A stretch of 39,915 bases of DNA from a virus. A program made the position numbers and the translations under genes. Positions 23,048-38,827 of the stretch are shown here, in pieces (the stretch's first letter is position 1; the number at the start of each line of letters is the position of its first letter). The notes under the pieces were generated by a model. That model was not told the DNA's origin and did no database searches. It worked only from the letters and a program-made list of their open reading frames with translations. The stretch is from positions 1-39,915 of IMG/VR virus record IMGVR_UViG_3300028802_000040; one strand, 5' to 3'.

Positions 23048-23059
23048 GTCAATCTCCTT

Positions 23060-23150
23060 CAAAGCGCATTGGTGAGCGAGGGCGAACGCGCTTTGCATAG
23101 GGCTGGCAAGCGCAGTCTCGCCAGCACGTTCATCCGCCGTATGTTGGCGG
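23060..23150. other. Three consecutive hairpins between divergent genes
   Basis: Three stems lie in 91 bases: CAAAGCGC/GCGCTTTG (23060-23067 and 23088-23095), GCTGGC/GCCAGC (23102-23107 and 23120-23125) and CCGCC/GGCGG (23134-23138 and 23146-23150). The first directly abuts the ribosome site of the - strand gene starting at 23047. They lie upstream of the TnpB-like gene and may be a 5' regulatory RNA of the - strand gene, or the left-end palindromes of an IS605-type element. Confidence 0.5.
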
Positions 23151-23180
23151 CTCGCTCGACTTTGCACGGGGCGGGGTTTT

Positions 23181-23215: not shown

Positions 23216-24268
23216 GTGCAGGTCGTGAATCTTTCCTATAAACTCAAGATGTATCCGTCCGCCAACAAAGCCGACACGTTGGCGCTTCTGTCGTCCCTCT
23301 TCCAACGCACCCATGCGGCCTGCACAACCACACTGGTGCAGGAAGGGGGGCGGCTCCCCAGTACCAAGGGGCTCGGTGAGTTCATCGGGCGTGCCTACCG
23401 AAGAGCGTTCATCGACTACCGGCGCACAACCAAAGCAGGACATATCCCCGGACCGCTCAAGGCCGAATTGATTGATAGCGCGGAGATTCAGCAGCCCAGA
23501 AAGGCCAAGAGCTTCGATCAATGGATTATGTTGCGGGGCACGAGTACCACACGCGGGAAGAGCGGCGGCTTCTATATTCCCGCCAACCGGCATAGAGCGA
23601 TTAACAGGACGCTGGCCTTGCCTGGTGCCAAGCTGAATGAAAGCGCTGAAGTCTTTCGCAAGAACGGCAAGTGGTATGCGCGCGTGAGTGTCTCTGTTCC
23701 GCTCGCTGAGGTGCAAGAAACGCGAGGAACCATCGGCGTTGACGTGGGAGCCCGTACCTGCGTTGCGCGGTCTGATGGGTACAAGGGCTGTGATCTCCGG
23801 CCTATCTTCAAGAAACAACGTGACCGCCGAGCCATGCAACAAAAACATGGGATCGACAAGCGGTCGAATGGTACGTTCCAGAAGCAACTGCTGAGCAAAG
23901 AGGCTCGCTCTTTGGTGTCCGTGGCACTGAAGACGGGAAGAGCGATAGCAGTTGAAGACCCCAAGCGACTCATCCGGTGGAAAGGTCACGCGGCGCGATT
24001 CTTTGGTATGAGAGTAGCGTTGCTGGCGGCTATCGTAGGAGTCCCATGTATCGTGGTCAACCCGGCTTACTCTAGCACTACCTGCCCTAAATGCGGGAAG
24101 GTCGAGCGACACATGAGACATAAAGAGACGTTCAGGTGTTGGCAGTGTGGCTATACGCATAATGCTGACTTCGTAGCGGCTCAGAATATCTGTCATTGGG
24201 GCTACCGTGTTACTGCGGTTTCACAAGGGTTACTTAGTCTTTGTCCTGGTGGGGGCAAAGTCGAGTGA
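23216..24268 (+). CDS. TnpB-like RuvC nuclease, copy 1 (no TnpA)
   Basis: 350 aa from GTG 23216; a second GTG at 23225 is possible. The complete RuvC catalytic set of TnpB/Cas12 proteins is present: D176 in GVDVGAR, E247 in AVEDPKR and D318 in HNADFVAAQN. A four-cysteine zinc finger (C290-x2-C293, C308-x2-C311) lies between the second and third motifs, as in the TnpB family. TnpB proteins are RNA-guided DNA nucleases, usually 350-420 aa. The N-terminus (NLSYKLKMYPSANKADTLALL) resembles the usual TnpB opening. No TnpA transposase or CRISPR array is nearby. It is a + strand island between - strand early genes, so an insertion is likely. Intact active-site residues suggest it is functional. Confidence 0.85.
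   Translation: MQVVNLSYKLKMYPSANKADTLALLSSLFQRTHAACTTTLVQEGGRLPSTKGLGEFIGRAYRRAFIDYRRTTKAGHIPGPLKAELIDSAEIQQPRKAKSFDQWIMLRGTSTTRGKSGGFYIPANRHRAINRTLALPGAKLNESAEVFRKNGKWYARVSVSVPLAEVQETRGTIGVDVGARTCVARSDGYKGCDLRPIFKKQRDRRAMQQKHGIDKRSNGTFQKQLLSKEARSLVSVALKTGRAIAVEDPKRLIRWKGHAARFFGMRVALLAAIVGVPCIVVNPAYSSTTCPKCGKVERHMRHKETFRCWQCGYTHNADFVAAQNICHWGYRVTAVSQGLLSLCPGGGKVE
24239..24260 (+). ncRNA. Candidate 3' hairpin of a TnpB guide-RNA scaffold
   Basis: CTTTGTCC (24239-24246) pairs with GGGGCAAAG (24252-24260) at the very end of the TnpB-like gene. In known TnpB systems the guide RNA (omega RNA) overlaps the 3' end of tnpB and ends with hairpins just before the guide. Here the guide would lie antisense to the nuclease gene that follows. 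RNA evidence is needed; this is a structural resemblance only. Confidence 0.3.
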
Positions 24269-24271
24269 GCT

Positions 24272-24673
24272 TCAGTTCGTGACAAACGCACGAACTAAAT
24301 CAAGCGCTTCCCCGCTCCGTACCTGCTCAGGGGTGCAGCGCAGGTAATGCCAGCCCGCGAAAGTCAGCGCATTGTGTTTTTCGATGTCGCCGAGAAAGCG
24401 CTTTTTTAACCGATGAACACCGCCATCACACTCAATCCCTATCTTGGCGTGTGGGCAGGCAACATCAAGCCGCCAGTTGCGCGATTCGTGAAACGTGAAT
24501 TCCCGAAACCACTGGCCAGGCAGCGCGGCGTCGACAATTTGCGCCAGCAGCACCGCCGCGTAATCGACGGTTGCCTCCCCCTTCCGTTCCTTCACTACCG
24601 GCGTACTCGGCGGCTTCCCGTGGACCCGCTGATGCAGAATCTTGAACTCGTTTTCGTCCAGACGGAGGCTCAT
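24272..24673 (-). CDS. PD-(D/E)XK-type nuclease (DUF559/Vsr-like)
   Basis: 133 aa with an ATG preceded by GGAG. The core reads WRLDVACP (D70), then IGIECDGGVH (E81, D83, H87), then RFLGDIEKHNALTFAGWHYLR, a typical order for restriction-endonuclease-fold proteins such as Vsr, DUF559 and MTES_1575-type enzymes. These cut or resolve DNA. Together with the RecT-like gene in the same operon it may supply the nuclease part of a phage recombination system or a Holliday-junction resolvase; the substrate cannot be told. It is the last operon gene and converges with the TnpB-like gene, their stops being 3 bases apart. Confidence 0.65.
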   Translation of the reverse strand: MSLRLDENEFKILHQRVHGKPPSTPVVKERKGEATVDYAAVLLAQIVDAALPGQWFREFTFHESRNWRLDVACPHAKIGIECDGGVHRLKKRFLGDIEKHNALTFAGWHYLRCTPEQVRSGEALDLVRAFVTN

Positions 24674-27236: not shown

Positions 27237-27401
27237 ATGGAAAAAATCTTTACCTTTCTCATCTATACGTGTCAGCGGTGTGGTACGGAGTGGCAGGCGC
27301 GTGTCGCCCATCCACTGCGCTGTCCCCGCTGTAGCTCGCCGCTGTGGCGGATGCCAAGAAAACCCCCTCACCAGAAAGGAGATCGTCATGCGCGCACTTG
27401 A
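27237..27401 (+). CDS. Zinc-ribbon microprotein 1
   Basis: 54 aa: MEKIFTFLIYTCQRCGTEW opens the protein, with C12-x2-C15 and C29-x2-C32 zinc ligands and the shared residues W19, R22, S34-P35 and W37, followed by a Pro/basic tail. One of four such proteins in the window. The family is common in phages and bacteria as unnamed small zinc ribbons; nucleic-acid or protein binding is likely but unproven. The start has no ribosome site and lies six bases after a -10 box. The 3' end overlaps the next gene by 14 bases, so it heads a + strand operon. Confidence 0.6.
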   Translation: MEKIFTFLIYTCQRCGTEWQARVAHPLRCPRCSSPLWRMPRKPPHQKGDRHART

Positions 27402-27843: not shown

Positions 27844-28053
27844 ATGAAAGCGCCCCGCTATAATCGCCTCCCCACCTGTCTACACGGCCACCTACTCGTG
27901 GCCGACAATCTCATCAAGCACGGAGACAGTCTGGTCTGTCGAACCTGCAACGTGACTGCAACCCGCAAAAGGAACTCGCGTCTGATTTTTCCGCCCCGCA
28001 AAACAAGGCAGTCGAACCATGAACGAATCATATTTTTACCGCGCCCTTCGTGA
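27844..28053 (+). CDS. Small zinc-finger protein
   Basis: 69 aa starting three bases after the previous stop. Residues 12-34 hold a CLHGHLLVADN...CRTC pattern, resembling the zinc-binding finger often linked to HNH-type or phage DNA-binding proteins (CxxGHxxxxxN...CRxC). A basic tail follows (TATRKRNSRLIFPPRKTRQ). There is no clear ribosome site; translational coupling to the membrane-protein gene is likely. The 3' end overlaps the end of the antisense TnpB-like gene by 26 bases, so its original C-terminus may have been changed by that insertion. Confidence 0.55.
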   Translation: MKAPRYNRLPTCLHGHLLVADNLIKHGDSLVCRTCNVTATRKRNSRLIFPPRKTRQSNHERIIFLPRPS

Positions 28054-29086
28054 GATACCGGCGTATCCCTGCGCGTGCCCATCGAGCGAGGTTCCAACTT
28101 GCCACGGTGTCGCTATGCCCATCGAAGCCACAGCTTACACAGTGAAAGACTTCCCCTCGCCTGTTCATCTTCTCGCAATGTCCACACGTCGGGCAGGTCA
28201 TGCTCGAATATGCGGGCCACTGCTCCCAGACGAAAACCACTCCGTATTCCTCAGCGATCTGCCGGACACGCGCACCAAAGTGCTGACGTGGCCAACCACC
28301 GATACTGCCCGATGGCTTGAGGTTGGACAGCGGCTTACAGGCTTCAATGACCAGAACTTTTCCGGTCTTGGCGGCAAGCGTTACCGCCTTACGAGCTTCG
28401 CGGTCGAGCAGTTGCTTGACCGCTGTTTTATCCGATCTTTTCTGATGTCTTTGTTTCTGTCGCGCCCGGTTGCGCTCGCGCGCCGCGTTCATAACAGGGC
28501 GCAGGCTCTTGCTCTTGTATCCATCCGAGCGGGCTACGCCGATATTCACCCCGACATCACAGGCAAGAACATCAGCAGACAGAACCGGCTTCACCTGGGG
28601 GAACTCAACGAACACCCGCGCAACCAGACCGCCTTTCTTCCCTTGCCGGACTTCGCAGGTAGGCCGGAGTGTGGCCCCTCGCCTGAGAGCGTTCTTGAGT
28701 GCGCGGTGCGTTTGCGTCGGCATGGCCTTACACGTCGGCGGCTTAATCCAGTAGGTATACGTCGTGCCCTTCGCGGGCTGAATCGTGGCATCACAGAGCA
28801 ACGGAAAGTCAGTCGGGCAGTGAAAGGGATCACCCGTTGCTTTCTCGGCTGCGAAGCCCGCGTTGATAATGCCACGGGCGCGTTGCTGCGCTTGGTTCGC
28901 AATCCAGCCGAGGCTTGCCGTACTTTCCGCCGTGCGCTTGGCTACCGGGCCTTGGTCGAAGTATTTCTGGCAGTAGTCCAGCGTGTAAAAACGATACCAG
29001 TGTGCGGCGTAGCGAGCCTGTTCCGCTTTGCCTGGGTTGGCTTCGATCTTCAGCGTATAGGAGCGAATAATACGGGGAGGTTTCAT
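28028..29086 (-). CDS. TnpB-like RuvC nuclease, copy 2 (coupled to zinc ribbon)
   Basis: 352 aa from ATG 29086. This start overlaps the stop of a 40-aa zinc-ribbon gene (ATGA), which fixes it; earlier in-frame codons lack support. The RuvC triad is complete: D177 (LACDVGVN), E248 (VLVIEACKP) and D326 (GHSDTVAS). The zinc finger is C298-x2-C301 and C316-x2-C319. Like copy 1 it has ARSDGYKS after the first motif, but otherwise the two differ greatly, so they arrived separately or split long ago. It is a - strand island in a + strand operon and has no TnpA. RNA-guided DNA cleavage is expected for the family; target and guide are unknown. Confidence 0.85.
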   Translation of the reverse strand: MKPPRIIRSYTLKIEANPGKAEQARYAAHWYRFYTLDYCQKYFDQGPVAKRTAESTASLGWIANQAQQRARGIINAGFAAEKATGDPFHCPTDFPLLCDATIQPAKGTTYTYWIKPPTCKAMPTQTHRALKNALRRGATLRPTCEVRQGKKGGLVARVFVEFPQVKPVLSADVLACDVGVNIGVARSDGYKSKSLRPVMNAARERNRARQKQRHQKRSDKTAVKQLLDREARKAVTLAAKTGKVLVIEACKPLSNLKPSGSIGGWPRQHFGARVRQIAEEYGVVFVWEQWPAYSSMTCPTCGHCEKMNRRGEVFHCVSCGFDGHSDTVASWNLARWARAGIRRYLTKGAVKI

Positions 29087-29205
29087 TTCTTGGGGGTATT
29101 CCACAAAGGGGAATGACATTTCGCGCACGACATAACTTCAGACTTGCGTGGAATCCACTGATGCCCACACCGCAGGCACGTAACAGAAGCAACCTTTATT
29201 TTCAT
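29083..29205 (-). CDS. Zinc-ribbon microprotein 2, upstream partner of TnpB copy 2
   Basis: 40 aa: MKIKVASVTCLRCGHQWIPR and then a C-terminal half with C27-x2-C30 and W35; ligands C10, C13, C27, C30. It is one of four paralogous zinc ribbons here and, at 40 residues, near the smallest a finger can be. Its TGA stop overlaps the TnpB start as ATGA, so both proteins are made from one mRNA by coupled translation. It has no ribosome site; the ATG lies seven bases after a TATGAT box. It may regulate or assist the nuclease; this is inferred from the coupling only. Confidence 0.65.
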   Translation of the reverse strand: MKIKVASVTCLRCGHQWIPRKSEVMSCAKCHSPLWNTPKK

Positions 29206-29212
29206 AATGGAG

Positions 29213-29241
29213 ATCATAATGACGATAAAACAGAAAGACAA
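29213..29241 (-). promoter_or_regulatory. Leaderless-type promoter of zinc ribbon 2 and TnpB copy 2
   Basis: On the - strand TTGTCT (29241-29236), 17 bp, TATGAT (29218-29213, five of six consensus bases), then seven bases to the ATG at 29205. The start point should fall on or next to the ATG. Confidence 0.6.
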
Positions 29242-29293
29242 GACCCCACCAGAAAAAAGTCAGACGCTCTCGGCCACAATGCCGGAGAACGAT

Positions 29294-29359
29294 CCGTCAA
29301 GACTGCGCTTTGACGGACCTATGCAAACCGGGCGCGCCCTCACGCGCCAATCCGGTTTG
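29294..29359. ncRNA. Two strong hairpins between divergent promoters
   Basis: CCGTCAA/TTGACGG (29294-29300 and 29310-29316) is followed eight bases later by a 13-bp hairpin: CAAACCG plus GGCGCG (29324-29336) pairs with CGCGCC and CGGTTTG (29343-29348 and 29353-29359), with one four-base bulge and a six-base loop. There is no T-tract, so it is not a terminator. It may be a structured RNA, a protein-binding site, or left-end palindromes of the TnpB element. Confidence 0.4.
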
Positions 29360-29421
29360 ATGGTACGCGAGGTTTCAATCCCGCAAAGTCCTGGCGTGGA
29401 CCAAAGACCAGGGGGAGGTCG

Positions 29422-37850: not shown

Positions 37851-38561
37851 TTACGCACGAGGCTGGTAGAGCAGGGTGAGTTGGTCGGCCAGATCGGCGG
37901 GGAGGGGCACCCACGCGGCCATGCCATGTGAGGCACCGACCGCGTGCCACCGTATGGTGCTGTCGCCCCAGACGCGGCAGACGGCGAGGGTTCTGCCGGA
38001 TATCGTATTGAGTGAGCCCAGCCAGGACGCATAGTCAAGGACACGGACCTGGCCCGTATTGTCCTTGCCAGGACTCGTGACTGTGACAGCAGGGAAGGGA
38101 GAGTCCTCGGTTATGGGGATATAGGTGGAGTCGAGTTTCTCCAAGGCAAGCGAAGAGGCATAGCGCTCTATGCGGGTCACGATATGGCCTATACTGGCAT
38201 ACGCGGCCTCGTAGGCTTCCTCTTGCCATTGGTCGCGTTGTTGCTCCTCTTGCTGCTGCCTTTTCTGCTCAGCGCGCGCCATTCTATTCGCGCCCGCGAG
38301 CGTCTCAGCGGTTACGGTATTGTTGCCGACGGTGATGGTAATCATGGTGATGGGTCTCCTCGGGGTGAAAGGGTGGGTGAAAGGGTGAGGGTCCCGCCAG
38401 TGGCCTATACTGGCATACGCAGCCTCATAGGCTTCGTCTTGCCATTGATTGCGTTGTTGCTCGGCCGCCGCTTGTTTTTTCTGCTCCGCTCGCGCCATTC
38501 TGTTGGCCGCTGCGAGGGTATCAGCGGATACGGTATTGTTGCCTACGGTAATCGTAATCAT
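37851..38561 (-). CDS. Hypothetical protein with duplicated N-terminus
   Basis: 236 aa if read from ATG 38561. It contains two copies of a segment of 54 residues: MITITVGNNTVSADTLAAAN... and MITITVGNNTVTAETLAGAN..., both ending in EAYEAAYASIGH. The second starts at ATG 38345 with its own ribosome site (GAGGAGACCCATCACC). The 18 residues between (WRDPHPFTHPFTPRRPIT) are translated from a former leader. This shows a recent tandem duplication of the gene's 5' end and leader, leaving an in-frame extension. The original gene is probably 164 aa (37851-38345). The C-terminal domain (GRTLAVCRVWGDSTIRWHAVG) is of unknown family. Confidence 0.55.
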   Translation of the reverse strand: MITITVGNNTVSADTLAAANRMARAEQKKQAAAEQQRNQWQDEAYEAAYASIGHWRDPHPFTHPFTPRRPITMITITVGNNTVTAETLAGANRMARAEQKRQQQEEQQRDQWQEEAYEAAYASIGHIVTRIERYASSLALEKLDSTYIPITEDSPFPAVTVTSPGKDNTGQVRVLDYASWLGSLNTISGRTLAVCRVWGDSTIRWHAVGASHGMAAWVPLPADLADQLTLLYQPRA

Positions 38562-38607
38562 CGTGATGGTTCTCCTTGGGGTGAAAGGGTGAGGGTCCCG
38601 CCAGTGG
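38376..38607. repeat. Direct repeat of a gene leader
   Basis: A 28-bp sequence (GGTGAAAGGGTGAGGGTCCCG, continuing CCAGTGG) occurs at 38376-38403 and again at 38580-38607 in the same orientation, 204 bp apart. It marks the edges of the tandem duplication in the gene between. Confidence 0.8.
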
Positions 38608-38608
38608 A

Positions 38609-38827
38609 CTAGGCGTGGTCTCCGTTCGTCACAACCTCATACTCAGGGTTCAACTCCGCTATCCTCTCCACCACGTCCCAGAGAGGAGTGGCGAGGGTGA
38701 ACGCGGTCTCCATGTCCCGCGTTCCCATGACTCGGTAGGTCTCACTGTTGGTCGGATACCTGGCGACCCAGCAGGAGGCTCCGCCGTAGATATGCAGGTA
38801 TGGCTTGTGTGTCCGTGCTGTCTTCAT
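38609..38827 (-). CDS. Hypothetical small protein
   Basis: 72 aa, ATG after AAGGAGACCCATCAC. Mixed alpha/beta sequence (KPYLHIYGGASCWVARYPTN, then ETAFTLATPLWDVVERIAEL). The length and pattern suggest a small compact domain. No family was recognised. The stop is two bases from the repeated leader sequence. Confidence 0.5.
   Translation of the reverse strand: MKTARTHKPYLHIYGGASCWVARYPTNSETYRVMGTRDMETAFTLATPLWDVVERIAELNPEYEVVTNGDHA

Follow-up and report, generated by a model that had tools for sequence, protein, structure and literature searches.

Zinc-ribbon genes directly ahead of diverse selfish nuclease genes, TnpB included, in uncultured phages: candidates for a nuclease control module

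Background

The C proteins of type II restriction-modification (R-M) systems are helix-turn-helix proteins. Their controller genes are small, lie ahead of the nuclease gene, which they sometimes overlap, are expressed from a leaderless transcript, and carry palindromic boxes at their own promoter (PMC4824078). In phage T4, the homing nuclease I-TevI is an autorepressor equipped with a zinc finger, whose operator overlaps the promoter, and MobE has a stop/start overlap with nrdA (PMC2988022). In the open-access literature searched, no zinc-ribbon partner is described for phage homing nucleases or TnpB, nor did it mention a small zinc-ribbon protein encoded ahead of TnpB of the IS200/IS605 type or of TldR.

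The locus studied here resides in an IMG/VR virus record of 39,915 bases, here taken over its whole length and called the window. A small zinc-ribbon gene (ZnR) lies in it directly upstream of a TnpB gene, and overlaps it, as R-M controller genes sometimes do with nuclease genes. The fold differs, the helix-turn-helix of C proteins being replaced by a four-cysteine zinc ribbon, and ZnR is therefore not classed as a C protein. Moreover, the nucleases found beside ZnR are mobile phage types, with no partner methylase seen. A zinc module, a promoter-overlapping operator (putative in the present case) and translational coupling are features shared with I-TevI and MobE; in I-TevI, however, the nuclease itself represses, whereas the ZnR cassette has a gene of its own for the candidate regulator, common to several nuclease folds. 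The TnpB of the pair has the RuvC and TNB domains typical of the family, but differs from the nuclease-dead TldR in retaining the catalytic residues, and, as far as the searched literature shows, from described TnpB and TldR in having the small partner.

The features of the locus, and of a second TnpB locus in the window, are as follows.

29083-29205, minus strand: ZnR, a 40-aa zinc-ribbon protein of subtype A (CxRCG-Wx9-CxxC-W), 68% identical to the ZnR preceding TnpB in contig L033
29083-29086, minus strand: ATGA overlap of the ZnR stop and the TnpB2 start, seen also in relatives
28028-29086, minus strand: TnpB copy 2 (TnpB2), 352 aa, RuvC residues D177/E248/D326 and TNB zinc domain kept
29213-29241, minus strand: predicted sigma-70 promoter TTGTCT-17-TATGAT, with 7 nt between its -10 box and the ZnR ATG, a leaderless geometry; weak alone, geometry as in related cassettes
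29203-29221, no strand assigned: CATWATG-n5-CATWATG direct repeat covering both the -10 box and the start codon; CATWATG occurs 6 times in the window, nowhere else as such a pair; speculative operator
29283-29363, minus strand: element of two hairpins ahead of ZnR-TnpB2, sharing 76% identity with 23056-23136; putative non-coding RNA
23056-23136, plus strand: the other copy of this two-hairpin element, ahead of TnpB1
23216-24268, plus strand: TnpB copy 1 (TnpB1), 36% amino acid identity to copy 2, without ZnR; promoter TTGCTT-17-TACACT predicted 6 nt before its GTG
27237-27401, plus strand: second zinc-ribbon gene, outside subtype A and with no adjoining nuclease

Results

The ZnR gene and the TnpB copies

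The original prediction of a 40-aa zinc ribbon ending in ATGA on the nuclease start is confirmed by the coordinates, as TnpB2 begins inside the ZnR stop codon. The protein (MKIKVASVTCLRCGHQWIPRKSEVMSCAKCHSPLWNTPKK; 29083-29205, minus strand) matches relatives in viral contigs with E values down to 2e-13 in profile searches, and is therefore more than a chance ORF. ZnR ahead of the phage TnpB is a real protein, coupled to the nuclease gene. The residues CxRCG..W.P...C..C....W are invariant in the alignment of ZnR proteins. ZnR is a four-cysteine zinc ribbon in which a Pfam scan found no helix-turn-helix, the predicted structure consists of two short strands without a helix, and a fold search retrieved generic zinc ribbons only (E > 0.8). 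No match was obtained by tblastn against cultured phages, and a search of 399 genomes from a single bacterial phylum, run without a positive control, retrieved no ZnR of subtype A. The ZnR family of uncultured phages, located directly ahead of diverse selfish nucleases, is apparently undescribed.

TnpB2 carries the TNB/OrfB zinc-ribbon domain (PF07282, E 8.7e-13), and its RuvC D-E-D triad was assigned by alignment with relatives. Its structure model is poor (pLDDT 58), and no close relatives were found in viral contigs, the best having about 25% identity. The coding sequences of TnpB1 and TnpB2 do not align as DNA. The 3' end of TnpB2, where a TnpB gene would have its guide RNA, is overlapped by a convergent gene, and no Rfam match was found; the hairpin element is located 5' instead. 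The overlapping gene (27844-28053, plus strand) encodes a 69-aa cysteine-containing protein weakly similar to a part of HNH endonuclease families (phrog_826, E 1.2e-4). At the other copy, an ORF resembling a DUF559/Vsr-type nuclease (24272-24673, minus strand) ends 4 nt from the TnpB1 stop. A 16-nt inverted repeat (15/16) around the TnpB1 coding sequence, at 23150-23165 and 24255-24270, is no more than chance would give in the region searched and was discarded. A stretch of about 230 bp is also tandemly duplicated in the window (38171-38611), its copies being 80% identical.

The two-hairpin element spans 82 nt (E about 1e-9 between copies) and is found upstream of both TnpB promoters. Five base pairs have changed on both sides between the copies and are still paired, and copy 2 is followed by a third hairpin and a T-run. 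The element is possibly a non-coding RNA. Both strands fold well, so that either may be the transcribed one; with two sequences to compare, the element could be an RNA of the guide type, the leader of the divergent genes, or what is left of a transposon end. A search of other phages by DNA pattern gave one match, in L003, which is a chance match inside a T4-like structural gene.

Genes flanking ZnR in viral contigs

Profile searches of viral contigs, from which 80 of at least 278 relatives were used, and an independent search by DNA pattern for the core of the zinc ribbon, which gave 80 loci among the matches listed, together yielded 101 distinct ZnR genes. According to Pfam, the genes directly downstream (75 genes) include 9 HNH_3, 3 HNH, 2 HNH_5 and 4 TnpB; those directly upstream, taken as a control (66 genes), include one HNH and no TnpB. 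The zinc-ribbon/TnpB pair, which the original prediction suggested seeking in metagenomic phages, thus recurs in four other viral contigs (L033, L034, L042 and L153), all with PF07282 matches. The ATGA overlap is present in both L033 and L034. In L042 the TnpB linked to ZnR is truncated and another TnpB ORF, unrelated to it, comes next, which suggests a later insertion.

Subtype A was defined, after the neighbours had been inspected, by a short N-terminus of 8-11 residues plus W-x-P-R-x-x-(E/D)-(V/I)-x-x-C; by this rule it comprises 34 of the 101 ZnRs, and a mobile-type nuclease lies downstream of 24/34 of them vs 5/67 of the other ZnRs (Fisher p 7.5e-11), two subtype-A genes being too near a contig end for the neighbour to be judged. 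The window ZnR fits the rule too. Nucleases following subtype A are of the HNH, GIY-YIG, DUF559 and TnpB types, labelled by Pfam or, for a few HNH-like proteins lacking a Pfam match, by sequence reading. The contigs found by the DNA pattern only split in the same direction (5/9 vs 3/37). When four more ZnR copies were sought later, an HNH-type gene was found downstream in L270 and L279, none in L281, and one case was not resolved. In 19 of the 24 cassettes the nuclease start falls -8 to +1 nt from the ZnR stop.

A small partner dedicated to TnpB, as originally supposed, is not what these neighbourhoods reveal, and the idea was rejected, subtype-A ZnRs being commoner ahead of HNH, GIY-YIG and DUF559-type nucleases. 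The partnership with TnpB is facultative, since ZnR is missing both from TnpB1 and from ten full-length relatives (48-70% identity) of the L034 TnpB, and occurs, among TnpBs of that type, only in the three already known. The L233 TnpB is ATGA-coupled to an unrelated 42-aa ORF. In the TnpB family of L034, L153 and L233-L244 a Ser/Thr replaces the expected RuvC-II Glu, and these proteins may be nuclease-dead. ZnR is probably a portable on/off controller of selfish nucleases, not a helper for TnpB alone.

Cassettes have been duplicated in two phages. L040 carries, at two places, ZnR-HNH units which are 69% identical over 746 nt, from the promoter to the HNH end, and two paralogous ZnR-HNH units in G013 are 68% identical over 688 nt. 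Identity of about 68% from promoter to nuclease end in both phages indicates that the pair duplicates as a unit.

Promoters and palindromes

Strong sigma-70-like promoters are predicted just upstream of subtype-A genes, in many cases with 6-8 nt left to the start codon (mean score 9.95 vs 7.56 in shuffled sequences, on a scale that tops out at 12 matches and a bonus for spacing). De novo motif search gave cTTgACAaa..CTTAC.TATAgGTTATAC, with an information content of 15.4 vs 8.7 for shuffled sequences and 9.3 for the other ZnRs. The motif holds the near-palindrome TTAC(C/T)TATA(A/G)GTAA, between -35 and -10; in the promoters the palindrome, which approximates TTAC(C/T)TATAGGTAA, lies around the -10. 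It is present in 61% of subtype-A loci vs 2.5% of shuffled sequences, about 40% of the loci being without it. At a threshold of at least 11/14 matches the motif occurs in 20/33 subtype-A vs 8/67 other loci (p 8e-7), and elsewhere at about 0.06 matches per kb. It is common to HNH, GIY-YIG and TnpB cassettes, although the PWM threshold is reached at only one of the four ZnR-TnpB loci, and was not found ahead of TnpB relatives lacking ZnR. Because the motif is common to cassettes with unrelated nucleases, and ZnR is their shared protein, ZnR is the likeliest binder of the palindrome.

The family palindrome, present in most subtype-A cassettes and reminiscent of the palindromic boxes of R-M controller genes, is absent from the ZnR promoter of the window. 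As to the claim of one promoter for both genes, the 7-nt distance to the ATG matches that of many related cassettes; the boxes (9/12 matches; 3 found vs 1.5 expected) are not significant alone. The CATWATG repeat could, speculatively, be a local operator, and it is membership of the family that suggests a regulatory role for the window ZnR.

Discussion

We give about an even chance to the hypothesis that ZnR binds DNA to regulate its own expression and, by translational coupling, that of the nuclease, in a manner comparable to R-M controllers but on another fold. ZnR would open a bicistronic cassette for a selfish nuclease, and the promoter located right at its start would produce a leaderless, or nearly leaderless, mRNA. 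Ribosomes terminating on ZnR would restart at the overlapping start codon, so that the nuclease would be made only along with ZnR. Accumulating ZnR would then bind the palindrome around the -10 box and limit expression, and one controller could serve HNH, GIY-YIG and TnpB nucleases alike. What the sequences show is the order and overlap of the genes, the recurrence of the pair, its duplication as a unit, and the palindrome of the family promoters. Binding of that palindrome by ZnR, repression, and a like action of the diverged window copy are what the hypothesis adds. Among the roles first envisaged for the small protein (regulator, inhibitor, guide-RNA helper), regulator is the best supported; nothing was found specifically for the other two.

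Alternatively, ZnR may be a detached DNA-binding or structural subunit, acting with the nuclease on DNA in target finding or homing. Fusion proteins of ZnR and HNH-type nuclease domains indeed exist, with the ZnR N-terminal in L115 and C-terminal in L142, an arrangement that also suits a direct role in the nuclease and counts against the autoregulator; strong coupling would yield matched amounts of the two proteins, and a zinc finger is found in the I-TevI linker (PMC2988022). Yet one partner should suit HNH, GIY-YIG, DUF559-type and RuvC enzymes, it is lacking beside most relatives of the L034 TnpB, and the promoter palindrome is left unexplained. We regard the subunit as unlikely.

Leaderless-type promoters and stop/start overlaps, as well as the similar coupling of T4 mobE to nrdA (PMC2988022) and of the L233 TnpB to its 42-aa ORF, would also suit a leader cistron or passenger, which provides the nuclease with a promoter and re-initiation while the ZnR protein plays no part in controlling it. 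What is conserved, however, is the ZnR protein itself, with its invariant residues, and not the overlap alone, which makes a mere leader quite unlikely.

That ZnR is a resident phage gene, at whose 3' end homing nucleases and TnpBs preferentially land, is in our opinion highly doubtful: free-standing homing nucleases (PMC2988022) and TnpBs do often abut the stop codon of a resident gene, but a landing site occupied in about 70% of cases, over diverse contigs, would be used very heavily, the window pair is antisense to the flanking plus-strand genes, and ZnR, HNH and promoter have been duplicated together, the paralogous units favouring a co-moving cassette.

More tentatively, and with a little under an even chance, the autoregulators may be taken as a zinc-ribbon family forming a portable module (promoter, operator, ZnR, coupled start) for unrelated nucleases, protein-guided and RNA-guided. 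Selfish nucleases must cut rivals without killing the carrier, and to our knowledge the control of free-standing phage nucleases is largely unknown. If the hypothesis is correct, the problem of nuclease restraint would have a general solution, a small controller shared by HNH, GIY-YIG and TnpB cassettes. TnpB would be placed among the phage homing-type genes, and ZnR would represent a compact natural switch for RNA-guided nucleases.
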